Below, one piece after another: positions 8,578-56,554 of a stretch of 56,554 bases of DNA. Below the pieces are notes generated by a model. That model had not been told where the DNA came from. It searched no databases and saw only the letters and a list, made by a program, of their open reading frames with translations. Position numbers and translations under genes: made by a program. Within the stretch, counting starts at the first letter, position 1, and each line of letters opens with the position of its first letter. Origin of the DNA: Heterotrichella gracilis (taxonomy: Eukaryota > Sar > Xanthophyceae > Tribonematales > Xanthonemataceae); contig JAULBX010025763.1 in NCBI GenBank assembly GCA_032358255.1, positions 1 to 56,554 of the forward strand, written 5' to 3'.

Positions 8578-11500
8578 ATGGGGAAGTCCTCAAAGAAAAA
8601 GGTGCAAAGTGGTTTCGTAGAGGCAGGTGATGTGGCATCGGTTCAGAGGCTCGTGGAGGTGCGTCATGCCTGCAATGCATGCATGTGGCATAGCGTATGC
8701 ACCCCCAGAGCGCCACAAAACAAGTTGCAACGCAAAGAATGCAATATGTGCATTTCAAAGAAGTATAGTCGACAAGTTCAGGCGGTGTGTTCGGTCCTTA
8801 TCGAAGCCTGAGATTGCACATGCATGCATTGGCACTATGCCATTGCGCAGCTTCAAAAGGCCTGCTGCGCACATAGCACGATGCATCGCCAACTATCTCG
8901 TGCCAACTCTAACACAGCAAGCCTTGCGGGTGCGCCTCAATGCGTACTTCACGTGTGTGGTGCAGGGAGACGCAACTTGGCAGGATGAGCAAACCTTCGC
9001 ATTGGCTTGCTTTACTTCGAACCCGGACCATGCCTGTGGACTATACTGCGTACAAGCCACCGAGCTCTCAGGACGGGCAGATGAGCTGCCCTCCCATGAA
9101 ATCTGTGAGCGGCTCCACAAACTGTGTTTTGCCAACTCGCTTGGGCATACCCATGGCATGGGCCTTGAACCTGGCCATCTGCCATCGGCCTTCAACCACC
9201 CTGGCTGTGTGCGTTGCAGCCACGCTGGGACACTCGACCCTGGTCTCGGGGCGGCCTGGCATCGGCCACCTGCTGAAAGCCACGCGCGCCACAGATGGTA
9301 CTGGCAGCAGGGCGTGGTTCTGCCCCTTGTGCCCCGGGGGCCTCGACACGAACGCATATCAGGGCACCCACCAGCTGCTGCAGCACTTTTTGGAGGCGCA
9401 CCAGCACTTCCAGCCCCTGTTCAAGCAGCTGCTGCTGCCGCAGTGCAGCCCTGGCGCAAAGGAGGATGTCGAGAAGGGGAAGATAATACGGGAGGCAGTG
9501 CAGAGGATGGGGCGTGCATGGTACGGTCCCACCACTCCACACCCTGAAGCCCAGTTCCAAAATATGAGTGGATTGCGACACTCACGCACAACAACGCACA
9601 ACAATGGCGGACTCCTGACACCCAGATTGTTGCTTCACACTGCAAATGGACAAGCTCACACCCTCTTCATGGTCAAAACACAAATCCTATTACAAAACCC
9701 TAAACCCTGACGTGGCTTCCCACTGTGCAGGGCTCACACCCTCTCCATGGTCACCGAGCGGTCAAAGTTTGCGCAGCGCCTATTCTGGCAAGGGCTGGAG
9801 GATGAGCTGGATGGGAAACGCCAACTCTCCACCTCCCCGCTCCCCTCCACCAAGCATCTGTTCCTGTTCAACATATATGCCGTGTGTGTCAAGGCAACCC
9901 TCACGCACCGCTTGCTGTAAGTACCCTGATGGAGGTTTTGAGGGCAATTTGAGTTGCTCACTCGTGGCAAGGCAGCTGCTGTTGCCGATGCTAAAGTATA
10001 CGATGGGTTCAATGGCCAACTGTGCACTGTCGGTCTGAAATATCTATGTAGTGTATGCCACAAATTCAGTTGGACCTTGAAGGTTTCAACCCATTGCTTC
10101 CTATTGCTGACTGATTCTGACTGTGGAATGGTTCCCCAACAAAACAAAACAATTGGCTTTTCTTGATGTGTGTGCTTGTTGCGGCAGGGCGGCGTGCACT
10201 GTCATGCCCATCCTGCACAGCGCTGCCAAGACCCTCACTGGGGTACCGCAGGACGAGGAGCTGCCCCAAGAGCACCGTAAGCAGGTGTGCTGCTAGCTGA
10301 AAACCCTTGAGAAACCCTTGAGAAACCATGTGATACCAACTCTCCCAGATACCGTGGCAATGTGCTCTGGGACACCCTGAACACCAACCCTCTGGAAACC
10401 ACGAAGTGAATTTTGCGCTATGCATGCATACTGCCATACATGTAAGTGACGGCAACCCTCTCCCTCCCTTCAGGTGCTTGCAATCATTTACCGAGAGGCC
10501 AACCCCCACCAGATGTGGGTGGTGTGTCACAGGATACAGGAGGTGGCCAGGGGGATGGGGGCACACCTGGAGTGCATTGAGTGGAATCATGATGGGGGAT
10601 CAGAGCTCATGGTATGGCTGCATGGGGGCGGGGGTAGCACAGGGCATAGGTCCCAATTGAGACGGGGTGCAGCTGCTGGGTGTTGCCACTGCACGCCACA
10701 TTTAAGCTCAGTCATTTCGTACAGATTCGTCACCCACGTCCTCCTTATCAGGCCTTCACCATTTTCGAGTGTGTCCCAAGTGCAATTGGGTTGCTTATCA
10801 GGCCTTCACCATTTTCTAAGTGTGTCCCAAGTGTAATTGGGTTGTTCTTAGTAATCAGGGCAATACCTGTCCCCATGGATGTATTCAAATGGCAGTGCAC
10901 AGCATTTCACGGGGTCACAATAGCCAAACTGGTCATGTTGGCAGCTTACACATTTGTGCATTGCCAGAACGGATAGGTTCTGGATATCCCATTTTCTACG
11001 CGACCAATGCAACTGCATGGACCCGTGGTTCCTGCAATCTACTATCCGCTTAGTCTCAACAATATTTGGTTGCTTGCAGGCGCCTGCAGATAAGCCTAGG
11101 GTCTTTCACCATGAGGAGATTATTGATGTGGATGGAGTCATATCCCCAGGCTACGTGACTTTCAGCCATGCCTGGCTAGACCAACTGGTCGCCTCGCTGG
11201 GCACTCTAGGGCAGGTAAGCCTTGCGCCAGATGTGACTATTACTCATGTAGTTAGCAACATGCATTCCAGCAATACAGCCACAATAGCAGTCCGCCGTGC
11301 ACACGCGGCGCAAGTAGTCGATGTAAGAATGAAACCCTGCACGGAGGTTGCTGGCTGGACGTTTTTGGCTGCTGTGGGGTACCGGCCCCATTGCGGCTTG
11401 CAATGAGTCGAAAACGTCCCAAATCAAATATTCTAAATCCCCCCTCAAAAGGTTCTCAAATCCCAATCAAACTTTTTCATATCTTAACCAAAGGTCCTCC

Positions 11501-14500
11501 ATTCTGAAGAGTACTGGGCAGGCTACAGCACAAAGTGAAAGCACATTACTTTGAATGCACTGTCGGAGCAGCAACTGATAATGTATATACTGCCCTTCGC
11601 GGTGTAGGGCCAGACTCCATTGCCCAGCAATCCTCCCCTGGAGAGGCTCTCACCACATCTGCAGGCCCTCTACCGCTTCCTGAACGAGCCCTGCCAAGTG
11701 AGTGCCACAATCACCATGGCAGCAAATGTGTTCATCTGCTTTGTCTTGTTGTCTCCCATGTGGTTGGGAGGCAGTGAACTGTTCTAAGCTGCTGCTGTAT
11801 GGCTTGCATTGCTGGTTGGCAGTCCGCATGACACCGTATCCTAAGGGTTTATGCAACTGCCGCAGGTGAGTGATGGGGCGGCTTTTCCCGGCAATGGCAT
11901 GGACATGAGGCACTACTGCCTAAGCAAGGCATTGCGCGACAAGTGGCAGCCAGGTGGGTGGTGCATTGTCACCACAACGGGGGGGTTTGAATGCCCCACA
12001 AAGTGAAGGGTGCTTGCCAGGGCTTATGTGTGTCCGTCGTAAACTCCATGCCTTATTTAAAATTGAATAATTGAAGGTTAGATCTTCTATGGCAATTTAT
12101 GAAGAAGCTTTTCACGTCTTGAAATCTGATTTTACACTCATATTATTATATACGTTTCTACATGTAATATCGCTGGTTTTGCCCCGCAGAGGTCGTGGCT
12201 CAAATGACCGCTCGAGGTGCACATCCACTGCTCCACGCGGTGCTCAGCGAGCTGCAGGAGGCACATGATCGCTACCTTGAGGCCAAAGAGGGTTTGAGCA
12301 CACTGCTGCGGCAGCTGGTCGACCCTAGGTAAGGGTTTTGGCAGACCCTAAACGGACCATGAAAAATTCTGGAAGAGACGCTAGCCAGGAGGTGTTTGTG
12401 TTTTGGGCAAGCAAACAGTGGGTTGTGGATATTTTGTTCTTGCTCTTAACCCTACACCTTATATTGTTACATCAATTAGCTGGCTGCTGATGTGGACTCA
12501 CGGTGTCACAATTTGTAGCAGTTACGTAAAACAGCTTAGCGCAAGGTGGTCATGTCTTTCTGCATTGAGCATCCATTTGAAACCATTGTCAGCCAAATGC
12601 TGCAGATGGATGTGACCACGCGTCCCTTAGGCCAGGGACATGCACCTATGTATTCAGTAAGGACAGATCGCTGCACTGGGTACCATCTGAAACAATCCTA
12701 CCTGATACAGGCCCCTTAGTGCAGCAATCACGCGCATGCTTGCTACACTCTGGTGCTGAACATGTAATCAGGGGTAACATGTTTCAAGCAAACATTGTGG
12801 GGCCCCTGTATGCCCTCATTCACTCCTGCAGCTGCTCGCTGGTTTTCATGTGGCGTAGACCCTAAACCCTACACCCTAACCATGGACCCATACACGCGCC
12901 CACCCACTCCTGCAGCTGCTCCCTGGTTGCCATGTGGCGCACGTGGAGTGAGCTGATGGGGGAAAACCTGGCGGCCGCCAATGCTGCGCTGGTGGAGGAT
13001 CGAGCCGATGCCCCCCGACAGATGCAAGTGCTGGTGGGGCTGGGCTGGATAGGGTTTAGGTTCAGGGTTTAGGGTGGCCGAGGGTGTGGCTGGTTACCGA
13101 TGCCCGCCGACAGATGCAGGCGCTGGTAGGGCTGGGCTGGATAGGGTTTAGGGTTTAGAATGGCCGAGTGTGTGGCTGGTTACCGATGCCTTCCGACAAA
13201 TGGAGGCAATTTTTTATGCCAAATCTGCCATCTTTAATTGCCAAATCTGCCAACTACATTGCTACACAAGTAATAAAGTGTTTTTGCATTGTTGACAGGA
13301 TGCTGACTCCGGTTATCACTGTTGTTCTTGACCCCACTGCCCCCTTGACAAAACTTCAATGGCGCCTGCGCAGTGCATCGATAAGGATGTCCTAGCAGAC
13401 CTGCAGCTGCCCAAGCCGGCGGCACCAGCGGGGTCCTCCCGGGACAGAGGGGCAGGGGCACAGGCAGAGGTGTGGGAGATGGTTGCGGAAGGGGCGGTGT
13501 GGATGGCGCATGTGGACGAGGTGCGGAAAGGAATATCATGAAAATGAGCGAAGATAATAAAAACAATGTTTGAATTAATAATAGGAGATAAACCAATAAA
13601 TAATGCAACTTTCACTGCATTTACGGTTGGGGGTTTTGGCCAGGAATTATGTGAATATCCTCACATTTATTTGTTATGTTAGTGTACCCCTGGTTTGGCT
13701 GGTGCACATGCGGCCCTTTGCAGCGTGTGGCCTTCAGGGTTCAACTCAGGTCGAGGGTTTAGTGTTGAGGGATAGGTAAGGTGTGCTAGTCACCTTGAAC
13801 CCCTCCTCCTATTCCCAAAACTTTTACTGGGGGTTAACATATGTTCCTGGTTATATATTAACGCCCCTGCTCTGACCAATGCCGTGATATACCCTCATGA
13901 GGGTATGGCCAGGGGCACAGGTAGCCAATGCTGCTATTACCCTCGTGAGGGATGGCCAGGGGCACAGGTAGCCATGCAGTGATTACCCATGAGGGTATGG
14001 CCAGGGACAGATGGCCAATCCCGGGAGGTGTATGAACACCAGATGCTTTTTTCAGGGCACGGGACTGAATGTGAGTGGGCCAGAGGCTGATTATTGTCTC
14101 TGTAACACTTTCCTGTGGCCTCTTGCAGGTGGTGTTCCTGCGGGACATGATCGAAGCTGAGTGTCGTCGAGGGCCGCATATGCCCCATGTAACAACGGTG
14201 TGCTCTTTTCTTTGGAGCAAGCCCCTGGAGCCAGCATACAAGTTGCTTGCTGATATGGCGTGCGGTATGTATGCTTGGGAAACACCCACCTAGTATGCAC
14301 CTTTGCTCCCATTCGGTTGGTCATTGCGGTGGGAGGGATTCAGCTGTTCTGAAGGTCATTGCAAGTGGAAGTGGAATCCGCTGCTGACCCTTGTCACATG
14401 GTACATTTGTCCAATGCACTGTCTGTTGGCTTGCTGGGAAGGCATACCAAGGAAGTCGAAGCAAGTGAAGCCATGTCTGCTTGAAATTTGTTTTGTTGTT

Positions 14501-17500
14501 GCACTCTAGTTGGTTAGACCAGTTCATGCCCCTTGCACCCCTTGATGGTGATTGCTTCGGAGAAGCTTCAGCAATGCCTCGATGAGTCAGGGCCTGACTC
14601 ACATGGATGTACGCACGCATTATTATGCAGATTTGATGGGCCATCCGTCGCAGGTCTGGAATGCCAGCCCTGCAGGAGAGAAATCCCTATATCTTAAACC
14701 CTACACCCTTCCCCAGCCCTCCGGGAAGTTGCGAAGTTTGCAAGTCAACAGACAACTGTATGTTTGACTCACATGGCGTACAAGATGCTTGACTCATATG
14801 ATGCACTTTGACTCGCGTTACTCATATGCCGTGCGCACGTACGGTTATGCAGATCTGCTGGGCCTTCAGGCGCGCACCCCTGGGATGCCGCACCTGGAGA
14901 GTTGGGATTTCAAAGAGGTGACGGCACTGCGCATGGGAGCTGAAGTGGGGGTCAGCATGGGGGATGTGCTCATGGCAGAATCTTGCTGGCAGGGCCTGGA
15001 CACTGTCTCTCACACCAACAGCTGCATTCAGGTGTGGCTCGTGGGGTTGAGGGTGGAGGGTTTAGGGTTTTGGGGGAAAATCGTTGGCAGGGCCCGGACA
15101 CTGTCTCTCACACCAACAACTGCATACAGGTGTGTTCCTGCAGTGAAGCCTGATCACCACGGCTCACACAGGCTGCTTTAGACGTGCCTTCAGTCCAGAT
15201 TCAGCTCCAATGTCCAGGACCTCGGATTGCACAGTATCAGCACACGGTGGCGCTAGTGCCAGGGACCAGCCTGCTTGGCAATGCATGTGCAGGGTTGGGT
15301 GCTGATCTGACTGTATGCAGTAGAGTGAATATAAGTAAACTGACAACCCTAAACTGTGTGCAGATGTGCCTCACGGAAATGGACACTGCTGCTGCCAATG
15401 GCAAAGACCTCACGGCTGAACACGTCATGGACAGTTATTTTAATTGTTCCATGCACCTGAAGCCGCACCTGAAGCCGCCCCCTACCTTTGCGTCCGCACA
15501 AGGGCCTGAAAACCCGTACTACATCCCGGGGGTTGACTTGTTCCAAGCCTCAAACCACAAGATCAGCAAGGGGGCGGTAACAAAGGTGACACAGGGGTGG
15601 GCAATACATACTGACATGGCCGCAGGTCTTGGTACTGCCTGCTGCTGCTCAGGGTGTACGGTTAATTGAAATCCTGCTGCACTGCCTGCTGCTGTTTAGG
15701 GTTTAGGGTTTAGAATTTAGGATCCGCTGCACGGCCCGCTGCTGCCAATCACAGGGTGCATGTGGACTGCATCCGCCCAATGGCCAGCTGTCTCTTTCAA
15801 AGATGTCGCATGCTATGCAAGTATTGTGTTGTGCAAATGGGCGTTGCTCTCATTACTCAACATGTGACCAGCACTGGCTTGTGCAATGAGAAGTTACTTC
15901 TACCCTGGATCTGCACCCTGCGGGCCATGCTCTTGGTCATGGGGCAACGCCACTTCTTACTGTCAAAGTTGCCGCAGCTATTTGCTTGTAAACAGCCAGT
16001 GTTGTTGGAATTGGTTGGCGCGTACACAGGACTTCACCTGTGCATGCAGGCTTATGCAGGTGCCGCTGATGAGCGTGGATGCAGTGCGCTTTGCGTGCGC
16101 AAGTGACCCCCGCGTCTCAGTCATATCACAGGTGTGGGAGGAGCTGGTAGAAAACCCCCAGTAAAAGTACTTCAAAATGAAATGGAAAACATCGTGCTAT
16201 TCTTTATGTGTTTTTGTGGGGAACCACCTTTGTGTCAGGCGCATACAAGATGTTATTAAATCTGAAAAGTTTTGCCATTGAACAAGCACAGTTATCGTCG
16301 ACAATCCCAGAGGGAGACAATTTCTGGGGATCTCAGGCTGGGCGCTGGGCGCCTGTTTGGGAATAGGCAATGCCCTTCCAGAGACAGGAAATTGTCTGGC
16401 AATAAGCGACTTTGTTATGTTTTTTGTTCCGACTTGTTTCATTTCCTCGTTTTTGCCTTTCCAACCCCTGTCGCTTCAATCCCCACCATTCCATCATCCC
16501 AGTCCATGAGAAGTGTGTGGGAAAAGCACATGCTTTCCCTTTTTTTATTAATTCTGTTTCATCCTGCCCGCTGCGTGTACAGGTGCAGCTACTGGGGGCT
16601 CTGGTACAGAACGAGGCTCGGCTGCGCAGACACGGTGCCAAGCCGCAGGCAAAGCACAGGCGCGCACTGGCGGTGGCTGAGCCCTGGCTAGTGGCGCGGG
16701 CCACCTACGACGGTGCGGTCAAGGCGGTAGGGGCGGCAGAGGCGCCTGTGCTTATAACTGAGGCGCTGCGGGTGGTGCTGAGGATGTTTGTGGATGGGCA
16801 GGTGGCGCAGGAGGTTGTGGAGGTGCGGGTGGCCCATCCCGGAGGGGTTGACTGGTTCCGGGGGGCTTAATGTCTGCTTTTTTATCTTCCTTATTCCAAG
16901 TTTGCATGCACCTCAGCCCCACCCTACCATGCTCATTTTCATGCAGGCCCAGGCCCTGGCACCTCATGTGCACCTCTTTTACACCCAGTTTCATTAAATG
17001 TACGCATTCCTTTTTCCCCGCGTATACTTGAATTCCACCCCTTCTTGCCCCCGCAGGCCCAGGTCCTTGCCCCCACCTGCGCCATGCTCACCAAGGCCTT
17101 CACCACAGGCGAAGTGCGCGACCCCCTGCAGGGGGCGGCGGGTCCACCTATGCTCACCATCTGCTGCTGGTTCCTGCGCAGCCTGCATGCAGCGCTGATC
17201 GTGCGGATCGGGGGGGCCTTGCCCGCAGGTGGTATCATTGCCTCGCCTGCTGGTGGTACCTCCCCTGCGACGGATTCCTCCCCTGTGGATGCTGCCTCTT
17301 CTGCGGAGACTTCCCCTGGCGGTGGTTCCTCCCCTGCGGGTGGTTCTTCCCCTGTGGGTGCTACCTCGTCTGCAGAGCCTTCCCCTGCGTGTGGTTCCCC
17401 CCCTGCAAGTGGCACCTATAGTACCTCCCCTATGAGCGGTACCTCCCTTGCTGGCGGGGGCGGTGATTCCACCCCTGCAAATACCTCCCCTGGGGATCCA

Positions 17501-20500
17501 GCCTCCACCCCATTGGCGCTGGTCCGCCCCATGCAGCCCACAGGCTTCACACACCTCATGGGGGCGATCCTGCGCCGCTGGTGGACTTTAGGGTTTAGGG
17601 TACTGCGGCGGCTACTTGGGGCATTGGGGCCCTCACGCGAGAGGGGTGCGGCGCAGTCCGCCTGCGCCCCCCCGCCGCTGGCCCGCGCAATGCACCGCTC
17701 AGGCTACACGCGGCTCATAGGGGCGATTCTGGGGAGCAGGTGGGTGCTAGGGTCTGGTTTAGGGTGTAGGGTAATGTGCAGGCTACACGCAGCTCATTGG
17801 GGTAATCCTTGGGAGCATGTGGGTGCTGGGGTGTGGTATATGGTCTAGGATTCAGGGTAGTGCACAGGCTGCACGGGCCTCGTTATGCGCGCCTTAACAA
17901 AGGTGCCTCATTATGCGCACCTTTGTTAAGGCTTAGGCAGCAGGCGGACTCTAGCATCATCTAAAGCAACCAAGAAATCTTATTGTCAATTGTCAACTGC
18001 GCGAATAACTCGTTTTTGCCTGCCAAGTACATAACATTTCCTCCCACCCATTGTCAGGTGCATAGATGTAGTGGCGAGCATCCCTCCTTGATACCAACTG
18101 TATGTACACCGACGTCCTTGTTTGGTTTCCAGGAACAACCTGGACACAGCATTGGCTACCAAGTTCATGTACCCCGGCACAGCCACATCCCTGGTGGGGA
18201 AGCACACACCCGACTGGTCCCACCTGTCCCCCCCCCCCCCGCCACCCTGGGTCAGCTGGCGGAGGAGTGCCTGTGGGACATGGTGGTGGAGGGGGATGTG
18301 GAGGTGGCGCAGGGGGTGTACAACGATGCGCAGCTCATGGGGGGATCAATGAGGTGGGTGGCGGTATTGCGTGGGTTTGGAAAAGGGGGGTAACATGACA
18401 TGTTGGCTGCAGGGGGCCCCACATCATCACATATAATCGTATGATACATCATCACATGCCCTACCTGCTGCAGCGATCAGGCTGCAAGACGTGACTCAGT
18501 CTGTGGCAGACATGATCACAGTGTACCATCTTCATCACTTAATCATATAAGGGGCTATGCGTAACTGCTATGCCACCTTATGCACACCTTTGGCGTTTGT
18601 TTCCTTTTCTTTTCTTTTCTATGATCAGTGATCACACGTCATCACATGCCCTCCTCCCCAGGTACCTGCTGCAGCGATCAGGGTGCGAGCCGCGCCTCAA
18701 CCTGTGGCACATGTGGGCGGCACTGAGCAGCGTCATACAGCTGGCAAGGAGGGAGACAGGTGGGGGTAGTGCAACCAGGAGGGGGGGAGGCACCACACAG
18801 TACAACAGCATAACCAGTGAATGGCCATTGCATGCGCGACGCAATAGAAAATTTGCTTGTGGGCTGATGCTCATTGCTGACCCTCACTGTTCCGGGCGGC
18901 CCCCCATCATGTGTAATATGTTACCCAATAAAATACATGTATTTATTTTCTGCTTCCTTTGACCTGCCCTCCACCGTGGCCTGATGTTTGTGCGCAGGTT
19001 CTCCCCCCCTGCCCTCCCATGAGAAGGTGCCAGGAGCCTGGCAGCTGGCGGTGAGGGTGGACCCGGCGCTGCCACCTGGCGATGTGCTGTGGGAGCCAGG
19101 CAATGCCATGTGGCGCATAGGCAGCGACTGGGAGGAAAAGGTGTGGACACATTTTTTACCTCACCAACCGCCTCCCTGTCCACCCAGATGCATGCGTGCC
19201 AACCCTAAGCCGTAAGTCCTAAACCCTAAAAGTAGTCTCTGTGCCCGCAGGCCGCGCGCGTGTGCCGGGTGATGCACCGCGTGTGCCACGAGCAGTGGTC
19301 AGGTGCCGGTGGAGACGAAAGTGGCAGTGGCCCCACCACCCGCCACCTGGAGGTGGAGCTGCCAGGTGGCGCCAGCAGCATCGCAGTGGTGCGTTGTGTG
19401 CGCTATGTGGACGCCCCACCTGACATGCGTGGGCTGGTGACTGCGCTGGTGGTCAGTGGGGCATGGAGCGACGTCACTGCGGTGAGTGGGTGTGCTGCGG
19501 GTGCTGGGGGTGGTGGAGCAGCAGCAGGGGTGCCTCGTGTATTTAGATGTACACATGTGGCCAGTTGCGTGCTACACACCCACCGGCAGGATACACCTGC
19601 CCGCACATTATCTCATTGACTGCACCTCCATGAAATTATTAATATGAAAAATCTCATCTATGTAAATTAAATTGTTAACCAAAAACATTCAATTGAAGAA
19701 ATTACTTTTTCAACAAAAAATCATTACTATTGTGAGTTGGCTCCCCATATGCGACCGTCAAATTGTAGCTTGTACTTCTACCAATGAACCTGCTTGCAGT
19801 GCCAGCAGCAAGTCGCGGACCACATCCCACGCAAGCACGCCGCGCTGGTGGTGCGCTGGGGCGACTGGCGCGTGGACGAACCTGAACCAGCATCCAGCAG
19901 CAGAACCCCCAGCATCCAGCGCCAGGTGATGGCGGCAGTGGCGCAGCAGTGCGTGGCACCCCCGCCAGAGGGCCTGCAGTGGATGGAGCATGTGCGTGTG
20001 CTGTATGCGGAGCCTGATGCGGAGCGCGAGGATAGCGTGCACCTGTATGCCTACTGCAGTGACGCGCCGCTGTGGCCGCCGCTGGAGGGCGCACCTGGTG
20101 ATGTGCCATTGCCAGATACGCCGGAGGCGCCTGGAGAGGGCCACATGCAGGAGCCGAGGGTAAGAGACATAATATTAGTAGGCAAGGGGGGATTGTCCTT
20201 CCCTTTGTTACCTCCTCTTTCTCAATTCCCAACTCACCTTTTCTGGGACAAGCAGCATAATTATCTGGCTATTATTAATAACCACCTCACTAACTAAGTA
20301 TTTGATAGGCTCAAGTCAGGCTGCAGGGTCATTGTTACCTGTTCTGTTATCTGTTTTAATCATTTTGCAGGTGCCAAAGCGGCGTGTGCAGCGGTGCACC
20401 GGGTGCGGTGTGGCAGGAGAGGGTGTGGTGTTGCTCAAGTGTCCCTGCGGCAAGGCAAGGTACTGCGGCAAGCCCTGCCAGAAGCAGCACTGGCCGCAGC

Positions 20501-22139: not shown

Positions 22140-22240
22140 ATGCTCACCCGCGTGTGCATGTTCTTCAGGAAACCCCAAAGCCTCAACCCTAAATCCCATA
22201 AGCACTCACCCGCGTGTACAAGTTGTTCAAGAAATTGTTG
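22140..22240 (-). repeat. Duplicated exon end plus donor (protease)
   Basis: CTCACCCGCGTGT(G/A)CA followed by GTTCTTCA(G/A)GAA-like sequence at 22142 and 22205 (plus-strand reading). On the coding strand each is an exon end with a GTGAG donor. The spacer holds CCTCAACCCTAAATCCC. Confidence 0.75.
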
Positions 22241-25200
22241 CCCAGGATCCCAAAAGACTTGGAATTTTCGGCATCATCCCCCGTTGTCCCCGATGCGCTG
22301 TCGTTAAGCAATATGTAGTATAGCTGGGGATCCGAATCATCCTGAAGACATATACAAAGCGGTTGAGTTTACTGCGATGCATGATTTGCAATTTGTGACT
22401 TTCCATTGTGATCACGTAGGGTGTGTGGTTGGCATGACCCACGCCCCTGACCTGCTGGATGTCCCAGGCTGGCTAGGGCACGAGGGCAACTTTCTTGTGT
22501 TTATCATTTGTGAATGTGGATGTGAATGCTATTGTGACTTGTGATTGTGACTGCGGTTGCAGTTACCATTGTTCACTGATTTCACGGCCCACCTGCTGCA
22601 TGTACTGGGTTGGCTTGAGCGCAAGGGTGACTGTCTTTGAGGGGGCGGCAAGCGTGAATTTGATTGCGGGGAAGTAGCTGTTCAGCTCGGCGTCCGTCAT
22701 GCCCTTTTTGAAGTCATCAGTGAGCTGGATGGCAGGGTAGTCGCCGGTGGCAAAGCTCTGCAGGTGCGGGATTGGCTTGCTATCATTGCGGGCAGCTGAC
22801 ACGTAGAGGGTGTTCACACCTGCGCTTCCTAGGAGGGACGTAGGAGGGCTCCTAGGGTTCCCTAGGAGCTCGACAATGGGTTCCTAGGAGGAGCTCATCC
22901 TCCCAGCCGTAAATCCAAATAGTCAGTGGGACTCACAGCAAATGTCCTCATTACCCACCCTGTCTGTAAAGGGTCCCAAAGCAGATGCCCACTGGCAGCC
23001 AATTCTTTGAACTACGGCACCCATCTCAAGTGCAAGCTATCGCCCGGCACCTGTTTTGGTATTGCAAGGCAGACTACTGGCAGCTGGAACAAGTTTGAGA
23101 GTTCACCGGCATTGGCATGCAGGGCCCTTGCGCCCAGGCCACAGCCCTGGGACGTGAGTGATAGGAAACCTGGGGGGGCTCCTAGAAAAAGCTAGGAGCG
23201 ACCTGGGAGCTCAGGATGGACGTATGTGAAGACCCTCTTATAAGGGGTGGGGGACAACGAGTATTTTGGTCAATACCAATAGTGCATTACTGAATAGGTG
23301 CGCCAGCCAATGGTTTTGAAAATCATCATTATTTATTATTATTTGTTGGTATTTCAAATTCAATCAGTTGATAATATGTCATTTACATACTCATACATTT
23401 TTGGTATCATACCACCCCTCGGCTGCACACCCAGCCACTCACCGTTTTGTCGTACATGTAGCTCACCACCGGCACATAGTCGTTGTCATAGAAGGCTGTC
23501 AGGGTCTTCCACATCTTGTTAAATACCACGCTGGGCAGGTTGGTGGCGCTGGTGCCGGTGTCAAGGAGCATGGCAAACTGGGCCTTGCTGGCCTGCAGGG
23601 GTGGATAGAATTTAGGGATTCTAGTAATGGTTAATCAAGCGAATGAATAACCTCAAGGGTGTCCAAGGGAGCGTGGCGGATCCTGAACTATGAAACCGTA
23701 ACCCACTGAGCTGGGCAGGTTTATACTTTAGGGTTTTGAGGGCCACATGCGCATGGGTGGTCACATGGTGCCAATCATATGGGAGGGTATGAACCCCGTC
23801 CCACCTACACACAGGCACATGGATGTACTAATCTACACCTGCATGCACCTAGGGCTTTCCTAGGGTTTTATGATTTCCTGAGCCACCAGCGCCACCCACC
23901 AGCTGGTTGCTCGAGTCCTTGTCAAAGCCCTTGTTCACGCCCCAAACCCCTCCTAGGGTGAGCCCCGTCAGCTTCACATGCGCCCCATCGGTCAGGGTAG
24001 CAGCAGACCACTTGGCTGGGTTTAGAAGGCTGGCAACGGCGTACTTGAAACTGTTTTTTGGGTTTGCGCTGCCAAAGACAACGGTCCCTGGGCCGCCCTT
24101 TGAGGTTCCATCCCCGATGCAGATTTGGAGGGTGGGGTCGATTGCCTTGGACTTGACCAGCTGCAAAAATATAAAGGTTCTGTCCTTATTAAATCTTAAA
24201 AAAATATGTAATTTATACATAATCGATTGCCTTGGACTTGGACAGCTGCAAGGGAGGGGGGATGCTGCTCAAGGGGGGTGGATGTGTGAAAGGTGGATGC
24301 TGTTGTGAAGTCAATAGTAGAACACAAATAGAAAAAGGACGTTGTGTGGTTACGCGGATTCGACCAAGCCCCAGACGAAACCAAACTAGACCGGGCAATT
24401 GAATCCTAGTCTGGCGCACTGGAATGTGACGCACTGGGGCTCCAAGTTGCATCAAACAGGTTCCTGGTTTATAATTTCCACACCCCTGGTCCAATTGAAC
24501 CCTAAGAAATCCTGCCACGGGGTTACCTTACACCCTACACCCTACCACAGCAGCGTACCTGGGCGTAGAGCGATCCCGGGGAGTAATTTATCCCCGATAG
24601 CATGGTCACCGATCCCGAGTACATGTCCTTTACCGTAGAGGTGGCGCAGTGGAATGTGAGGCGCTGGGGCTTAAAGTTGGGGAACTGGGGGAAGGAAAAC
24701 ATGTCGGACATTGCGGGGCCAAATGCGCCAGAGTTGTCACCTGTGGCAAGGAGGGGGAGGGGTACACAGGATTCATATTCACAGGACGGAATCTGGAAAG
24801 CTTGGGTGGGATTAAAGGGAGCCCTAAGCAAGCACCGTGGGGGCTCTCCGCCTGGCGAATGCACTCATCCAGCCCCAAACCCTACACCCTACACCCTACA
24901 CCCCAAAGGAAGCCAGGACCACGCACCATAGGTGCTCTCCACCTGGCAGACGTGCTTCTTATCGCAGGAGCAGTTCACCACGCTGCACTCGTTGGGCCCA
25001 AAGCTGTCTTGGCACTGGCTATCTGACCCGCACAGCGCCTTGCAGGGGGCGCTGCCGCACTTGGCATAGCCCGAGTTGGTCTTGGATTTGGTCGGGCTGA
25101 AGATGGGCTTGAGCTGCGGGTGCAAGCACCAGGTGGTTAGGGTTTAGGTTTTGAGGGTTAGGGTTCAGTTACGAATCGGTTTTAGATTTGGTGGGACTGA

Positions 25201-41660: not shown

Positions 41661-42022
41661 CTCCACAACCTACCAGCACCCCTACCCCATGCCGCTTTGG
41701 CTATCACGGCTAGCACCACCCAGAGGGCCAACCCCCGCCCCATCACCCATGCCTACCCAGCCAATCGCCAGCACCGTTGGGCCATCATTGCACCGCATAC
41801 GCCCATCATATGTTCATGCCCATCCCTGTGCTAATCTTGTACCACTTGATGTGCACACCCCCTATCTGTCATCCACACGCGCACCGCGTTTGCACACAAC
41901 ATGGCGAAATGCAGTGGTTATATCATGCCAGATAAACACTAGTAGAGGTACCCCATGGTGCCGCAACGCCCTGTATGTGGTTACTCACTAAGGCCCAGGA
42001 AACGCAATTTGTGCAACGCAAT

Positions 42023-42140
42023 GCAATGCATGTAGGGAGCGCGGGCAGTGAAAAAAACATAGGACGGTAGCATAGAGCCCCTAGCCCGGTTCGCTGCTGA
42101 TAAAAACTACTAATCAAAATATTTGAGCCTCGCCCTCCCT
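42023..42140 (+). repeat. Direct repeat copy 2
   Basis: Second copy of the 41542 repeat, about 480 bp downstream and directly upstream of the FKBP20-2 gene. Followed by a C/T-rich stretch. It could hold promoter elements or be a short non-autonomous transposon. Confidence 0.9.
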
Positions 42141-42214: not shown

Positions 42215-45200
42215 ATGCGGACTCTCGGCACGTGCACATGTCATCACCCTGCCGCTGCGGCTATCAATGCACTATCGAGAGTGGTCGTGCCTTGTCTATC
42301 TACACTAGTGCAAATGGCCGCCCCATCCCTTTGGGCGCCCTGGGTCAGCTAACCCACCTCACCCCACCCACCCCGACCCCCGCAGGCACAATGGGGCAAT
42401 GTGCGTGCAGCAAAACGAGGAGGGGAGCTCAGCCGGCAGCCGGGACACTCCCCCTTGCCAGATGTCACGCAGGCAGATGATGCAGGTGGCTGTGGGGGTA
42501 GCAATGCTGCAGGTGAAACCTCGTAGGGTGTATGATTTTCTCAGGGTTCTTGGAACTTAGTAGGGGCAGCGCATCCCGGGGAATTGTAAACCGACACAGA
42601 AACGTCAGATGTGGCTATTTTTACATGGATAGATTTGACACCCATTTTTAAGATACGAGTACAATGCTCTCTTTGTTGACATGTCTGCGCGATCACGTCC
42701 CTCCTTGCCTTACCCTTGCTGCTTCACCATGCCTTGATTTCCTGTGCAGCGGTCGTATGTCCCCCCATGCCACCCCACCCTGCACACACCCCGTGCCCCC
42801 ACCTCCCCATTGTGCCCCGTCCAGGTTTCCTTCAACCCTAAACCCTCAACCTGAAACCCTAATATCTCATGTTGTGCCCCGCCCAGGTTTCCCCCAGCCG
42901 CGCCGACCCCGTTGATGGTGTGACCACCCTACTCCCCACATCGATAGAGATGGAGCTGTCGCTGCAGCAGAAGCAGGTGTGGCTTGGGTGTAGGGTGTAG
43001 GGTTTAGAGGTGGAGCTGTCGCTGCAGCAGAAGCAGGTGTTACTGGGGTGTAGGGTTTAGGTTCGCTGAAGCAGAAGCAATTATAAGCAGGCTGTACACC
43101 TATACTAGAGGTGTATATAGTATATGGGCTATAGACTTATGACTCGGTAATTAGGTAGTAAAAGTTACAGCCAGACGCAGCACCCTACCATACAGCCCTT
43201 GCACCAGACAGCCGCATGGCATGCGGTCCCTTCCATTTCCCATTGCACCTGTCAACCCTACACCCAAAACATAAAACCCCTTGGTCCCCACCCCCGCAGG
43301 TGTTGGAGTACAACAAGCGCATCCAGAAGCAGAATAACGCCCCCCAGGGCTTCCCCAGGTTCCTGCGGGAGGGATTTGACATCAAGGTAGGGCACCGTTA
43401 GGGGCCTAATTTGGACCCCCCAGTGGCATCCACAAATTTGTGCAGCCTTGGCATTACTTGGCTGTTGTAGAGCTATGGGGCAGTGGTTGGTAGCGCCAGG
43501 GGTGTATACACTTTAAACCAAAGGTTGACAGGAACAACCTCTGGTAGCCGATGTTGCGGCAATCTATAAATGCTTGCCTGGGAAGAAGGCATGGTGTTGC
43601 ATGTGTCTCTTGGAATAGTCGCAATTCCTTGTAAAATCCTTGTGCGCCGCAGAATGTATTTTTTATTTTTCATAATTGCAGGGCAATTTCCTTGTTATAG
43701 ACAATGTACATGTTGCTGATTGGAGGCTGTATGTGGCTCGCATTACTTGTTTGCCCAACTCAGCGCTCGCTAACCTCGGATGCACAATTCATCTTAAAAC
43801 TTGGCACATTTCCCTCCCTAGGTTATTGCCGATGACTACCAAACCTCCCCTGAGGGGGTGATATACCGCGACTACACCGAAGGGGAGGGACCCACGCCCA
43901 CCGACGGCCAGCAGGTGGTGTTCAACTACACGGCTTTCAACGAGTCTGGTGCACGCATCGACAGCAGCTACACCAAGGGCAGGCCAGCCGAGACCCGGCT
44001 GGGGATCAATGGGCTCATTCCAGGCGCGTGCGATAGGGCGGGGGTGGTTGGGTGGGGTTGGAATGGCATCATTGCAGGTGGCATAGGGAGAGGGTGCTTA
44101 GGCTTGGTCAGGTATATCATGGTCGATGAGTCTGGGGTTTGCATCGACAGCAGCTACACCAAGGGCAGGCCCGCTGAGACCCGGCTGGGGATCAATGGGC
44201 TGATTCCAGGTGGGTGCCATGGTGTGGGGATCAACGTCCTCGTACCAGATGCATCAGTGTGGAGGGGGGGGTGGGGCCGGGGGGGGTGCGGAGTGGGTGG
44301 GGGGGCCTGCCAGGGCCAGGCCCCTCCTTTCGATAGAATTTTGAGCTGAACCTGGCCAGTAGGCTAGTAGTCTCATGGGACCAACCACGCTCAAAAGAAT
44401 GCTCCCCCATCCCTCCCCGCAGGGTTTGAGCTCGGCCTGGCCAGCATGCGCGTGGGTGGCAAGCGCCGCATCATCGTGCCCCCTGAACTGACCCTCTCTA
44501 TAAGTCCATGCAAATTTAAATTGAGTCCCCCCTCACCCCCCTTTCTGCAGGGTTTGAGCTAGGCCTGGCCAGCATGCGCGTGGGTGGCAAGCGCCGCATC
44601 ATCGTGCCCCCAGAGCTTGGGCCCCCTGTTGGGCCATCCACCTTCTTCTCAGCCAAGCAATGCGAGGTGCGTGAGGGGTGGATGGGTGCAAATCCTGATT
44701 TTATAATAATTTCCCACAATTCTGCGGGGGGATAGGGGCTGACCTGGGTGTGTGGTGGTGAGCCACTGATGGGTTGGCTACCAGCTGTCCACTAAGCCCT
44801 AAAACCTCCCTATTAGCTTGAACCCTTGTGCGGTGCAAAGTTGAGCTTGTGCTTGTGTATGTGGACCCTAGACCACCAACTCTCAACGCCTAAACCCTAA
44901 ACCCTATCTTCATCCTGTGCAGGTGTTTGATGTGGAGCTGGTTGCCATCCGCACCTGCATCCGCCTAAACCCTAAACCCTAAACCCTATCTTCATCCTGT
45001 GCAGGTGTTTGATGTTGAGCTGGTTGCCATCCGCACCTGCATCCGCCTAAACCCTAAACCCTGAACCCCATCTTCATCCTGTGCAGGTGTTTGATGTGGA
45101 GCTGGTTGCCATCCGCACCTGCATCCGCCTAAACCCTAAACCCTAAACCCCATCTTCATCCTGTGCAGGTGTTTGATGTGGAGCTGGTTGCCATCCGCAC

Positions 45201-45249
45201 CTGCATCCGCCGCCAGACGCTCATGTTCTCAGACGTGGTGTGCGAGTGA
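42215..45249 (+). CDS. FKBP20-2: FKBP20-2-type peptidyl-prolyl isomerase, thylakoid lumen
   Basis: Exons: possible transit-peptide exon from ATG 42215 (MRTLGTCTCHHPAAAAINAL, junction unresolved), 42386-42512, 42887-42976, 43300-43386, 43822-44023 (or to 44209), 44551-44666, 45169-45249 (TGA). MSRRQMMQVAVGVAMLQ is a twin-arginine plus hydrophobic lumen signal. Then VLEYNKRIQKQNNAPQGFPR, VIYRDYTEGEGPTP, F-N-Y-T-A-F-N-E-S-G-x-R-I-D-S-S-Y, FELGLASMRVGGKRR, PPELGPPVGPSTFFS and VFDVELVAI. These agree block by block with plant FKBP20-2, which is needed for photosystem II supercomplex accumulation. The two C-terminal Cys (R-T-C ... V-V-C-E) that form the redox-active pair in plants are kept. As in the plant lineage, several FKBP active-site aromatics are altered, so isomerase activity may be weak. 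Four of the exons have tandem partial copies (separate entries). Confidence 0.92.
42823..42900 (+). repeat. Duplicated acceptor/exon start (FKBP20-2 exon 42887)
   Basis: TGTGCCCCG(T/C)CCAGGTTTCC(T/C) at 42813 and 42873. Spacer is AACCCTAAACCCTCAACCTG and similar. Both copies have a CCAG acceptor. Confidence 0.85.
42947..43080 (+). repeat. Duplicated exon end plus donor (FKBP20-2 exon 42887-42976)
   Basis: GAG(A/G)TGGAGCTGTCGCTGCAG followed by CAGAAGCAG|GTGT occurs at 42948 and 43008, then a third partial GCTGAAGCAGAAGCA at 43066. TGTAGGGTGTAGGGTTTAG lies between. Confidence 0.95.
43838..44215 (+). repeat. In-frame 186-bp tandem duplication within FKBP domain exon
   Basis: GCATCGACAGCAGCTACACC and GGGATCAATGGGCT(C/G)ATTCCAG occur in both halves. 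The first copy ends CAG|GCGCGT, the second CAG|GTGGGT. The distance between the two possible exon ends (44023 and 44209) is 186 nt, so both keep phase 1, and the sequence between is open. Confidence 0.95.
44413..44620 (+). repeat. Duplicated acceptor plus 5' two-thirds of an FKBP20-2 exon
   Basis: GCAG|GGTTTGAGCT(C/A)GGCC up to ATCGTGCCCCC(T/A)GA(A/G)CT at 44423-44491 and 44551-44619, 128 bp apart. The first copy ends in ACCCTCTCT with no GT donor; the second continues with GGGCCCCCTGTTGGG. Confidence 0.95.
44905..45210 (+). repeat. Four 82-bp tandem units: acceptor plus start of last FKBP20-2 exon
   Basis: Exon starts lie at 44923, 45005, 45087 and 45169, exactly 82 bp apart. Each unit is CATCCTGTGCAG, then 42 nt encoding V-F-D-V-E-L-V-A-I-R-T-C-I-R, then CTAAACCCTAAACCCT(A/G)AACCC. 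Units differ at only a few bases. Only the fourth runs into the true C-terminus. If an upstream acceptor were used the frame would read L-N-P-K-P then stop. Confidence 0.97.
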
Positions 45250-45634: not shown

Positions 45635-45639
45635 TGTAA
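45635..45639 (+). terminator. TGTAA polyadenylation-type signal behind FKBP20-2
   Basis: TGTAA, the usual chlorophyte poly(A) signal, 386 nt after the FKBP20-2 stop codon. It lies downstream of the TATA candidate, so assignment is uncertain. Confidence 0.25.
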
Positions 45640-48891: not shown

Positions 48892-50994
<2,103 letters not shown>

Positions 50995-52310: not shown

Positions 52311-55300
52311 CTAATTCCCCTTGGTGGCCTGCAGCGAGTACCTGTTGATGCGCGGCATGGGCCCCTGGCGCGACTGCGACGCCGCCCCCCTGCCGCGCGA
52401 CCCGTTGCCCCCGCACAGCCCCCACCGCCGCAGGGGGGCGATGTATATGATCACGCCCACCACGATGACCAGGGTGAGGGCGGTGGTGGTGATGGCGGCC
52501 CCTTGCAGGCGGGAGGGGACCCTAGACAAGGGTTTGCGGGGGGGCGTCTTGGACAGGTACTTTGCCTGGAACTCGGCGCCTGTGCAGGCGGGAAGGGGGG
52601 AGGAGGGTTAAGAGATGCTGGGCAGCAAAATGAACATGGAACCAGTGTTGTAAGGTGGGTATAGAGGTGAACAAGGCCAAACAATGAGAGGCCGGCCGGC
52701 ACAGCAGGTGGCCAGTGTTGGAGGATGGACCTAAATGGGGCACGCACGTAAATTGCAAGTGCAGTTAACTGCAATAAATTACAGTGTGGGTGTGGCATCA
52801 GTCATCAGAATGGTACTACAAGAGCCATTTTCTTTTTATTTACCTGTCATCTCCACCGTCACAGAGGCCCCCTCCTCCGCCCTCCCCGCCCCCTTCCCTC
52901 CCCTCTCCCCCTGCCCCGCATCCACCGTGGCCACGTCGCTGACATGTTTCCTCCCCTTCACAGTCTCGTTGTCCCATTTGCTCCAATTATCCTCCTTGGC
53001 GACGGTGGCGGTGGTGGTCCCCGAGCCGCTGCTGCAAACCACACAGGGTGCGCAGTCACAACCCTAATCCAGGATTTCAAGTTTTCAAACCCACACAGGC
53101 ACATGGTATCAAATCCTGGTGTGAATGACACGCGCACACGCTCAGCACCTGCTGTCTTCAACAAATTAGAACCCCCAAAAAAGAACCTCCACAGATTTTG
53201 GGATCTTGGATTCCACATGTAATTGTCATGTACTAGAGAAGACTAGAGAAGCCTTCACTTCATTACCTCCATATGAGTGGGGGTGAGGTATATCATAGTG
53301 GGGGTGATATACCTCACCCCCACTCCTTTTGGCCCCCTCATGGAGGGTTTGAAAGATACTATTCATCATTTCAATGAGTGACAAGTGCCCACTTTGTCAG
53401 CAAAAGCTTGGTGCACCAGCATCTGCCCCGCCACAGCATATAGCCCCAACAAAACCCTCTCCTCGTCCACGGAAACTGCCTTCCTCATGGTCTCCAAAAT
53501 TCCCAACTGCACCACCGGCGTGCAACCCTAGCGCCATGCCACCCTCCCCACCAGAACCTCGCCAAACCCCTCCACCCAGGTTTCCAAACTCACCCCACGA
53601 GCTCCGGTTCCCTCGGTGGCTCCTGTGGCAGCGGGTGCGAGGTTTCGCCTGCATCCGCATGGTTGGCCACCATCTTGGAGGCAGGGTGGGTTGCCACATG
53701 ATCAGCCAACACAAGGAAAGCAGCCACCCAGGTTGCCACTGTGGTCTGATACTCCCCCTGGTGCGAGGGGTTGTAGGCCGCAAAGCAGGAGTTGACCTTG
53801 CCACGGATGTTGTTGGCCTGGGGGGAGAAGTTGGGTGTTGTTCACTAGGGGTTTAGGATTGAAGGGCAGGGGGACGTGTCACCACAGCACTACAACCACA
53901 CTCATCCACCATATCGTAGCACCAACACCCACCCACAACACAACACTTGCAAGGTACAACCCCCACCATCCCCTCCCCTCCCGCACCATTACCCACCGAC
54001 TGTAATCGCCTCGACGATACTCTCCCCTCTCCCAATGATCCCCCGCTCCCAAACCCTGCCGTGCCATTTGCCCCCTGCACAACCCCACCACCCTCAACAC
54101 CACCAGCCCCTCTCAAGTGGGCAAGGTGGCGGTGATGGTGGTGGTGGTGGTGGCGGTGGCGGGGGTGCCCGCCATTGGCCAACTTGCCTATGCCATTCTC
54201 ACCATACACCTGCACAGGAGGAATTAATTAACACCTTTGATTGAAGCTTGTGGCGATTCTGAATGTCGGTTTACACAGGCAGGCAGAATCCAGAGGGCGC
54301 ATGGTGACTTGCGTTTGAATGTGCCGAGGATTTGTGCAGCAAAGGAGTTAAGCGCCCCCCTAGGGTTTCACCCCCACTGTGATAAGGGTACTCCGTGTGC
54401 AGCTCCGCGTAGAACCAGTCCATGGATGTGCATAGGCCAGGTAGGGTTTCACCAGGTTTTGTTAGGGTTTTGCTAAGGTTTCACCTCCACTGTGATAGGG
54501 TACTCGGTGTGCATCTCTGTGTAGAACCAGTCCATTGATGTGCCATATGCCAGGTAGCCAGCCACCTCCCCCGCAGCGCCCGCCATGCACTGGCAGTGGG
54601 TGTTCATGCGCGCAACCACAGACAGGGTGTCGGCCTGCGCAGGGGAAGGGAGAAAGATAAAAAAAGAGAAATGTGCAAGGGAGTAATGGAAAAGCGGCGA
54701 GGCATATGCAAATGGCAGCGGGTGTTTTATTGAGGGTTGACTCACTCAACAAATCCCCAGACAGCTAACCACTCCGGCCCCGTCGCAACAACATAAACCT
54801 CCAGTGAGTCTAACCTTGTCCTGCGTCCGAAACCTTAACTTTTCATAGGCACTGCCGCGCAACAAACCTAACCCATTACCATCCCTCAAACTGTGCCTTT
54901 ACACCATTCATGAGCACCGCGCAGCATCAACCCTAGACCCCAAAACCCTGCCACAAATCCTTACCGGGAGGTCTTTCCCCAGCTCCTTTTTGCTGTCCCA
55001 GGGCACATAGATGGCCCACTCCCCGGAATGTATATTTACATACGCCCTGGGGGGCTGCTTTTTGGCCAGGGATGCGACGATGCGCGTCTGGGGTTCCGAA
55101 AAAGGAGCCTCCCCCCCGTAATCCTCGTTGCGTGCGCTCGGCACCTTGACGAATGCGTAGGGCCAATTCCGATTTAGGTCCACACCTGCAGGGGGGACAA
55201 TGCTGGTGAATGTGGGGAGGGATAGGAAGGGGGCATATTGTAGTGCAAGCTCATTGAGGGGTTAGTTGATGTGACGAAATTGAGGCAGGGGTCATAAAGT

Positions 55301-56554
55301 TGGCCATACATGATGGGAGAATACATTGTAAGTAATTACTACCGAGCTGGGCTCCGCAAGGGAAATTGTGGTGCAGTAGATTGTAGCTGGTATTTAATGC
55401 AATTTGGCCAACAATCATGTGTATGCAACTCCCCATTGTATGCATGAATATGTAGGAGTGGACCGGTGCACTGGGGCAACAATCACGTAAATGAAGCTTC
55501 ACATTTTGTGCATAACTAGTAGTACGTAGTTATGGACCAGTGCTGACTGCACAGAATACTTGGGCACAAGCGCAACGCTATTGTGCCATGCAACAGCTCT
55601 CACCCTTTAGGGTTTTCCTGAGACACAGGTCTCCATTCTCCGCTGCCTTCCTCCCCTCAATATTGGCAATCGGCACAATCTGCATGCACCACAGGGGACG
55701 AATCACACGCAGCAAGGCAAACCATACGCATTACATTTCATGGAGATGATACAAATAAGCCAGCGGGAATTCCAGAGCAGTACAGTTTTATTCCCTGACC
55801 TCCCGCAAATCTGATGTGACGTTGAGGATTAGGGATTGAACTCTAGGGTTTGGTGTAACTTACCTTGAACACCACCTTGTGCATCAGGGATCGGGCCCAT
55901 CCCAGGAAGTCATTGGGCCAGCCGATGGTTGCATTGCGGTTGGCTTCGTGAATCTGGTAGCAAGGAAGGGCGGGTGCTTTTAGATGGTGGGGTGGAGCGG
56001 AGTGAGGGTGAGAGTGGCCACTGTATGAACTCTTTGTTTGGCCCTGCCACTCTCCCCAGCTAACACAGTACATGCACCAGCCACCAGCAACATCACCTCA
56101 TTTGCAAGGGTATTTCCACCTGCCCCAAATGCCCCCAAAGCCCCTTACCTGCTGCACCGCCGGCCACTGCATGAACTTCTTTGCCGGGCCCACCAGGACC
56201 CTGCCCAGCCAGTACACAATCTCGCTGGTGATCAGCTCGCGCGCGTGCTCCCCAGCCACCAGCAGCACCACCTCCTTGCCGCTCTCCCCACTGGCAAAGT
56301 CGGTGATGGTCACCACGGGGAGGTAGGTGCTGGTGTCGGGGTCAAGGAGCTCCTCATACCTGGGGTTTGGGGGGGGATATGGTGTGGGGGGGTGGGGTCG
56401 GGTGGGACAGATCCCATAGAGTGGAGGAGTGGGGTGGGTGGAGGGCAGTGGGGTGGGGTGGGGATTGGGTGGAACTGTATCGCACATCCCTGGTGACCAC
56501 GGGGAGGTAGTAGTTGGTGTCGGGGTCCAGGAGCTCCTCGTACCTGTGTGTGTG
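52311..56554 (-). CDS. Membrane-anchored M14 metallocarboxypeptidase, N-terminus outside window
   Basis: Coding-strand exons: 56359-56149, 55953-55864, 55679-55604, 55185-54965, 54634-54485, 54209 to unclear, 53818-53594, 53031-52844, 52579-52311 (TAA). Zinc ligands H-x-x-E lie in VAGEHARELIT and the third His in AYVNIHSGEWA. The substrate-binding motif is GVDLNRNWPY, and the catalytic Glu is in ITVEVYGENG after GYLAYGTSMDWFYTE. ENGDLCLRKT and APFSEPQT resemble the plant At5g42320-type family. A large Gly/Ser/His-rich C-terminal region follows, then one membrane helix (TTTALTLVIVVGVIIYIAPL) and a short Arg-rich cytosolic tail. It would remove C-terminal residues from peptides in the endomembrane lumen or at the surface. 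The stretch around 54130-54000 includes GGT-repeat-encoded polyhistidine whose exon status is unclear. Confidence 0.88.
53275..53325. repeat. Perfect 21-bp inverted repeat (hairpin)
   Basis: GAGTGGGGGTGAGGTATATC plus A at 53275-53295 is exactly complementary to 53305-53325 around a 9-nt TAGTGGGGG loop. Outer CCTCCATATGAG/CTCATGGAGG adds imperfect pairing. In an M14-gene intron. Confidence 0.95.
54125..54172. repeat. (GGT)n trinucleotide tract
   Basis: GGCGGTGATGGTGGTGGTGG... ; on the M14 coding strand it would read as a polyhistidine run. Confidence 0.85.
54355..54560 (-). repeat. Duplicated exon end plus donor (M14 catalytic-Glu exon)
   Basis: GTTTCACC(C/T)CCACTGTGATA, GGGTACTC(C/G)GTGTGCA and GTAGAACCAGTCCAT occur at 54365 and 54479. 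Both encode the D-W-F-Y...E-Y-P segment and a GTGAAAC donor on the coding strand. GGTTTTGTTAGGGTTTTGC lies between. Confidence 0.93.
56300..56554 (-). repeat. Duplicated acceptor/exon start (M14 exon 56359) reaching the window edge
   Basis: CACCACGGGGAGGTA followed by G(T/.)(A/.)GT(T)GGTGTCGGGGTC(A/C)AGGAGCTCCTC(A/G)TACCTG occurs at 56313 and 56496. On the coding strand each encodes Y-E-E-L-L-D-P-D-T. The outer copy is cut by the right edge region, so more copies may follow. Confidence 0.9.

Follow-up and report, generated by a model that had tools for sequence, protein, structure and literature searches.

The stretch of DNA analysed here (contig JAULBX010025763.1 of assembly GCA_032358255.1 from Heterotrichella gracilis; 56,554 nucleotides, hereafter the window) carries predicted genes whose products match the U-box, aspartyl protease, LETM1, FKBP and M14 carboxypeptidase families, together with a histone H3 gene and a gene for a THI5-like protein (thiamine-pyrimidine synthase), whose best named matches are green algal (61% identity to Chlamydomonas schloesseri, Gonium and Chlorella variabilis); an Rfam scan of the window returned nothing at curated thresholds. 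In many genes of this genome the edges of exons are present as short, decaying tandem copies, often with a scrap of telomere-like sequence between the copies. In the typical donor layout, an exon end with its donor and a few tens of intron bases is followed by a telomere-like tract, for example GGGTTTAGGG, and then by a second, decaying exon end with donor; the layout at acceptors is mirrored. Both copies show either exon end and GT or AG and exon start in the arrays whose sequences we inspected.

Tandem copies of exon edges

An earlier note on this DNA had named 14 coordinates at which splice borders appeared to be repeated, and direct repeats were found at every one of them, with scores of 22–48 compared to 18 for a single shuffle (runs of N excepted). 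The copies are direct rather than inverted and the unit is short: at a score of at least 24 there are 358 direct pairs of similar pieces against 9 inverted ones. At these 14 places periods span 60–210 bp, and for the 87 refined pairs the 5–95% range is 48–234 bp (median period 105 bp, identity 79%). Divergence between copies does extend from near-identity down to less than 70% identity, with the middle 90% of refined pairs at 68–92%. This spread, and the recurrence of the pattern in stretches from other contigs of the genome, speak against an assembly or collapse artefact, an explanation that we find barely credible even though one array is 97% identical over four copies. Too broad, on the other hand, was the statement that nearly every multi-exon gene is affected: by our own count border arrays occur in 6 of the 13 multi-exon models of the window, with none in the histone H3 or U-box gene and one weak pair in the THI5-like gene. 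Duplications confined to introns also exist, at 10744, 13876 and 17246 without telomere words and at 15634 with them.

On the forward strand, acceptor borders are duplicated at 12800..12939 (84 bp period, 79% identity, with CCCTAAACCCTACACCCTAACC in the spacer), at 14592..14899 (223 bp, 71%, with a short C-strand tract in the spacer) and, lacking a telomere tract, at 18441..18736 (201 bp). Donor borders are repeated at 13005..13207 as three partial copies 86–92 bp apart, the first two of which are followed by a TTTAGGG-like tract; at 14945..15134 with a period of 96–98 bp, where GGGTTTAGGGTTT separates the well-matching parts; and at 17497..17872 as three copies with periods of 160 and 79 bp and TTTAGGG tracts at the joints.

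The FKBP gene on the same strand holds four arrays. Its donor borders are duplicated at 42945..43061 (60 bp, 91%, both copies being followed by TAGGGTGTAGGGTT or a variant of it) and at 43937..44229 (186 bp, 86%, no telomere tract), and its acceptor borders at 44402..44640 (128 bp period, telomere-word bases being present away from the joint, which itself has no tract) and at 44889..45211, where the acceptor border of the last exon is present four times in nearly the same form (82 bp, 97%); CCTAAACCCTAAACCC or a sequence close to it stands ahead of every one of the four, and an older copy of about 60% identity lies upstream. Keeping one copy of each piece in the predicted FKBP-like protein gives a single contiguous domain match (profile 2–93 of 94, 63.4 bits); keeping the extra pieces gives two stretches, the best covering 15–93, and a whole-protein score that is in fact higher at 75.7 bits, presumably due to pieces being counted twice. 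Based on these predicted models, we read the extra pieces as decoys. At 44029–44213 of the same gene the donor of copy 1 is CAG|GC and that of copy 2, 186 bp away, is CAG|GT, with the frame open through both, so that this exon may be readable either way.

On the reverse strand, donor borders are duplicated at 22143..22234 (62 bp, a weak pair with score 22 and TTTAGGG in the spacer) and 25457..25731 (239 bp, 92% over 36 bp) and stand in three copies at 26193..26429 (70 bp, a AAACCCTAAACCC-like tract after each copy). Acceptor borders are repeated at 24138..24251 (85 bp, no telomere tract), at 25072..25278 in an aspartyl-protease exon (100 bp, 76%, AACCCTAACCC and CCTAAACCCTAACC between copies) and, in three copies with C-strand telomere-like words, at 25790..26030 (98 and 79 bp), whilst at 24412..24679 a short exon-internal piece has been copied into the next intron (230 bp period, TAGGGT-like words between). 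The LETM1-like gene shows a donor duplication at 37874..38184 (209 bp, 86%) with a spacer free of tracts, and the M14 carboxypeptidase gene a duplicated exon end and donor at 54360..54557 (113 bp, 88%, CCCTAA-like spacer) and a duplicated acceptor side at 56307..56554 (184 bp, 86–89%, no telomere tract). Of the 14 places named in advance, 12 contain at least 10 bases of telomere words, the exceptions being the arrays at 37874 and 56307.

For statistics we sampled the genome (68.5 Mb in 903 contigs, of which the window is C325) through 23 extra stretches picked by contig number, independent of content. Four were dropped: L022 (all N), L023 and L028 (GC content below 0.39, no predicted genes) and L025 (no predicted genes), leaving 19 and the window for the later statistics; the latter three of these four were excluded only after the circular-shift border test and the composition comparison, in which they are included. 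Stretches L001–L008 were kept out of the statistics because they had been fetched for containing the motif. Genes were predicted from codon usage and splice sites, with training on the window and the sampled stretches and without RNA support, after a Markov coding model had drifted to a few long frames; this gave 62 genes with 355 introns (median intron 283 bases, median exon 133 bases). Four predicted proteins from telomere-poor stretches match the TLC ATP/ADP transporter, papain, UbiA and GcpE families, and we thus consider the models usable. A stricter gene model lost true genes, with real border arrays then falling into the intergenic class. As BLASTN self-comparison missed many arrays, repeats were detected by sliding local alignment of 48-base pieces against the following 600 bases. 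Low-complexity and low-scoring pairs were removed by fixed thresholds, which left 80 of 103 refined pairs for the placement-null and simulation tests: 42 border, 15 intron, 10 mixed, 2 exon and 11 non-genic. Genome-wide pattern counts are lower bounds and include overlapping matches in longer tracts.

Telomere-like tracts between the copies

The chromosome-end repeat of this genome is TTTAGGG, the same unit as in the interstitial tracts: seven CCCTAAA units (49 bases) have at least 45 exact matches, and all those listed are at most about 300 bases from a contig end (11 contigs) and on the expected strand, with the C-strand at 6 contig starts and the G-strand at 5 contig ends. The long telomere arrays that were found all lie at contig ends, and the tracts near the copies are short: the sample holds 202 tracts of at least 10 bp, with a median of 16 and a maximum of 42 bp. 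Short words are abundant, the two-unit word having at least 5629 matches genome-wide compared to at least 5 for a reversed control, and they are concentrated in introns: in the sample, CCCTAAA/TTTAGGG was counted 132 times within predicted introns (about 118 kb), 6 times within exons (about 64 kb) and 16 times between genes.

Tracts are enriched in the arrays and, within these, between the copies. At least 10 telomere-word bases are present in 37 of 57 border or intron pairs, compared to 33% of random genic spans, and in 36 of 54 such pairs against 40% of spans when only telomere-rich stretches are considered. Telomere-word coverage is 0.134 in spacers (125 pairs), 0.08 inside copies, 0.044 in introns and 0.059 and 0.033 in the two flanks, a control with the reversed unit giving 0.036 in these spacers. 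Among the 44 pairs with a spacer of 8–150 bp, a tract is found in the spacer in 17, in the upstream flank in 2 and in the downstream flank in 5. Arranged by gene strand, 34 arrays (setting aside 13 further pairs with both border kinds) carry a tract at the joint only in 11 cases, on the outer side only in 2, at both in 7 and at neither in 14. For many arrays these counts favour a tract added at the joint, and for some a tract of older date. The association of telomere-like spacers with border-spanning duplications, which the earlier note had called apparently new, is real and recurs in the sample.

A possible alternative, which we consider distinctly less probable than addition at the joint, is that the tracts came first, by any route, and as fragile sites or through microhomology provoked ordinary tandem duplication nearby, with the breaks setting the joint. 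The seven arrays with a tract at matching places in both copies agree with this order, as does the duplication at L031:5522–5682, where GGCAA stands at both ends with a tract adjoining, and 94 of the 157 tracts in introns are not part of any detected array. However, tracts-first predicts equal numbers of joint-only and outer-only arrays, and we observed 11 compared to 2 or, counted by spacer, 15 compared to 5.

In a further alternative, the copies would be target-site duplications left by an introner or a mobile element whose ends are telomere-like. Introns do hold one small dispersed repeat (window 48035–48169 and 11249–11311, also in L031 and L016), with copies 77–88% identical in introns of unrelated genes; against this, no common element body is visible in the inspected spacers, the duplicated pieces are local exon edges, and the 355 introns of our small genome sample give just 24 hits between genes, several of which stem from one small repeat. 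We rejected introners on this basis and regard a mobile element as very improbable.

Splice borders and strand orientation

Short introns alone bring many duplications to splice borders, and the fair test of a border excess is a forward simulation of tolerated duplications. In this simulation 38–46% of tolerated duplications fall at borders, or 55–63% once a generous detection advantage is modelled as two-fold longer visibility of exon-side copies. We observed 42 of 57 at borders (p 0.003 to 0.054). By telomere content, duplications without telomere-like sequence (11 of 20 at borders) show no excess over geometry, whereas those with it (31 of 37) exceed geometry even after correction for detection (p 0.0002–0.0045). 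Thus, border-spanning duplication in general is mostly geometry, and the telomere-bearing class appears not to be; that tandem duplications as a whole prefer splice borders finds no support, the telomere-free class fitting geometry. Two simpler tests were set aside: a circular-shift test, which is crude and shows little, placed 44 of 108 arrays at borders (against a mean of 34.5 and a maximum of 50 on shifting), and a placement null gave 42 of 57 against 28% (stricter gene set: 33 of 44 against 25%), and is too favourable to the finding, as neither detection nor the length of the intron prior to duplication enters into it.

The same numbers bear on the explanation that no special mechanism exists, with random duplications being border-heavy through short introns and longer-lasting exon-side similarity, and with introns simply rich in telomere-like words. 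Geometry together with a two-fold detection advantage accounts fully for the telomere-free class, and the difference between the two classes is not significant (p 0.17) when the stricter gene set is used. The telomere-bearing class does not fit, however, and neither does the concentration of tracts between copies: 57 of 167 intronic tracts lie inside arrays, which hold 10% of intron bases, and 57 of 148 against 14% in telomere-rich stretches. We therefore consider random duplication unlikely as the whole explanation.

Orientation of the tracts differs between the two intron ends. Of 157 intronic tracts, those within 60 nt of donors are balanced (24 G-strand, 22 C-strand), whilst those within 60 nt of acceptors are almost all C-strand (37, with 3 G-strand). 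Genome-wide, at least 664 C-strand and at least 254 G-strand words lie ahead of the acceptor-like TGCAGG; the control TGGCAG follows the C-strand at least 159 times, which on scaling by hexamer frequency (1.111 to 0.694 per kb) becomes about 254 and equals the G-strand count, and thus the excess near acceptor-like sites is of the C-strand only. Behind the donor-like CAGGTG there are at least 428 G-strand and at least 534 C-strand words, where the donor control run for the G-strand (CAGTGG before it) gives at least 128, or about 211 scaled. The balance at donors suggests that the duplication process has no inherent strand preference, and for the skew at acceptors the best reading is that TTTAG|GG has been removed, as it offers a ready 3' splice site.

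This orientation pattern also bears on whether selection keeps the tracts as splicing aids (CTAAAC serving as a branch point close to the acceptor, runs of G close to the donor) with duplications riding along. In line with such a role, tracts outside arrays are also somewhat border-near (47 of 94 within 60 nt, p 0.007) and CTAAA occurs 25 times in the branch-point zone of telomere-rich introns compared to 6.9 expected. However, both orientations are about equally common near donors, telomere-poor introns of the same genome do without tracts, and G-strand tracts at the 5' end show no co-occurrence with C-strand tracts at the 3' end (p 0.61), all of which makes a splicing-aid origin rather improbable. 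The last result also speaks against a hairpin of 5' TTTAGGG with 3' CCCTAAA, a candidate that we rejected.

Proposed repair of staggered breaks and related systems

We see about an even chance that the arrays are scars of staggered-break repair, in which short tandem duplications arise with a few TTTAGGG repeats added at the joint. Break repair adding telomeric repeats near splice borders had been offered in the earlier note as speculation; it is the best fit to the data, with staggered breaks and a role for telomerase or CST as parts that we infer. A staggered break with overlapping ends would be filled in from both sides, so that the overlap B becomes two copies; before joining, telomerase, or a polymerase copying telomeric sequence, would extend one 3' end and leave A-B-(telomere repeats)-B-C. 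Telomerase or CST/Pol-alpha may be involved at the breaks: because CST serves telomeres and breaks alike, a 3' overhang meeting CST and telomerase could yield A-B-(TTTAGGG)n-B-C. Where B lies across an exon edge, the gene would survive, with one copy keeping the exon intact and the other stranded in the intron as a decoy. A splicing filter would then act on the tracts: near the acceptor almost only the CCCTAAA orientation would be retained, since TTTAG|GG could itself serve as a 3' splice site, and near the donor both would be. After this the decoy would decay. Arrays of three and four copies would stem from repeated events or from slippage of existing copies.

Several observations weigh against this repair scheme. 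The excess of spacer-only over outer-only pairs (15 and 5) is only moderate, 14 of the 34 arrays have neither a joint nor an outer tract, and in 7 of the 20 tract-bearing arrays the tract is in both copies, as expected if it predates the duplication. In several multi-copy arrays, 26193–26429 and 44889–45211 among them, the outermost copy is also flanked by a tract, which is unlike the simple scheme. Furthermore, the direct contrast of border share between telomere-bearing and telomere-free duplications is modest, with p 0.028 in the permissive gene set and p 0.17 in the stricter one, and the break model alone gives no account of why telomere-bearing duplications favour borders beyond geometry. 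A stronger version can be framed: telomerase-coupled break repair acting at or near splice borders, perhaps via breaks caused by transcription or splicing, as a main engine of intron growth that repeatedly plants telomere-spaced decoy exon edges. We hold this version to be doubtful. Under it, long tracts (41 of 202 in the sample have at least 23 bp) would mark spliced-in decoys for nonsense-mediated decay, since the seven-base repeat holds a stop codon in each reading frame once per 21 bases.

The fate of the copies is in line with decay. Exon parts are 85.3% identical between copies (2255/2645) and intron parts 77.7% (1518/1953), and this gap looks as if one copy were constrained and the other free. 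The decoy GT or AG is retained in 38 of 47 cases, which we judge close to neutral decay (estimate 0.853 squared = 0.73), and hence there is, as judged from the sequence, no sign of copies being maintained for alternative splicing, a use that the earlier note had considered. Frame preference was sought in the periods and not found (remainders 0/1/2 = 34/27/26). Tandem duplication including splice motifs has reportedly given rise to introns in potato, and intron gain by AG|GT duplication had been suggested as a possibility for this genome. Such gain is not supported here: donor and acceptor flanks match in register at 6.57 of 26 positions compared to 6.46 expected (standard deviation 0.11), and a second comparison gave 6.52 compared to 6.62 of 26, although old gains could have decayed.

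If the repair reading is true, this genome is a natural archive of very many break-repair events with telomere-marked joints and copies from near-identical to barely readable, in which the frequency of telomere machinery in repair away from chromosome ends could be studied directly and the birth and death of decoy splice sites and the lengthening of introns could be observed. The comparison of tract strand at donors and acceptors would then give a clean view of splicing selection on otherwise neutral insertions.

Insertion of telomeric repeats at breaks is known, and we rate as new the variant with telomere-spaced copies of splice borders; an open-licence literature search, covering titles and abstract openings, gave no paper describing telomere tracts at splice borders or in the introns of algae. 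The comparisons that follow rest on excerpts of the papers cited. Mammalian genomes likewise carry short interstitial telomere-type tracts, some with target duplications (6/130 in rodents and 4/25 in primates, PMC2246262; 3/66 plus 2 complex cases in horse, PMC7215372), which are attributed there to break repair and read as staggered breaks; none of the human insertions lies in an exon (PMC2246262, PMC7215372). In mammals, however, duplication is a minor outcome and the 31% of human insertions that are intronic are called compatible with random insertion (PMC2246262, PMC7215372), whereas in this genome the tracts are found mainly in introns and between duplicated exon edges, with thousands of two-unit words. 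In mouse and human cells, fill-in at break ends by CST-guided Pol-alpha leads to small tandem duplications (PMC8355091), a likeness extending to the short direct duplications, with overhangs down to 43 bp there, and to a telomere-maintenance complex (CST/Pol-alpha-primase) at breaks; unlike the arrays here, the excerpt describes no telomere repeats at the joints and does not address gene position. In Drosophila (PMC2891723), intron sliding and gain by tandem duplication also duplicate splice motifs near exon edges, but introns are created or moved there, whilst here a border already present is duplicated and its spare copy stays within the existing intron. Repeats in direct orientation close to the splice sites of introns (PMC11782384) likewise lie at intron-exon borders, in that case as 4–30 bp repeats at both ends of one intron, compared to units of about 50–230 bp at one border here, many of which are telomere-spaced.

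The duplications are regional. They are almost absent from the initial 10 kb of the window and from several of the sampled stretches whose introns are ordinary: L009, L011, L013 and L018 contain ordinary multi-exon genes with no filtered duplications and nearly no tracts, and by tetranucleotide composition the first 10 kb of the window groups with L009, L011 and L018. On contig C2, between 4.5 and 117 kb, there is no 14-base telomere word among the matches listed, and a 12-base one at 20.8 kb. The boundary between tract-poor and tract-rich sequence in the window lies at about 9.6–10 kb, and tract-poor regions (window 1–10000, L009, L011, L013, L018) seem to share intron lengths with tract-rich ones (10000–56554, L010, L015, L020, L029, L031). 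Other sequences in the data were noted as well: L023 and L028, with 35–39% GC and no predicted genes, are possibly organellar or foreign; an intronic minisatellite free of telomere words lies at window 17242–17412 (units of 18–69 bp); and at window 41544–42137, where only weak exons are predicted, two telomere-free 118-bp direct repeats stand 477 bp apart and are 91% identical.

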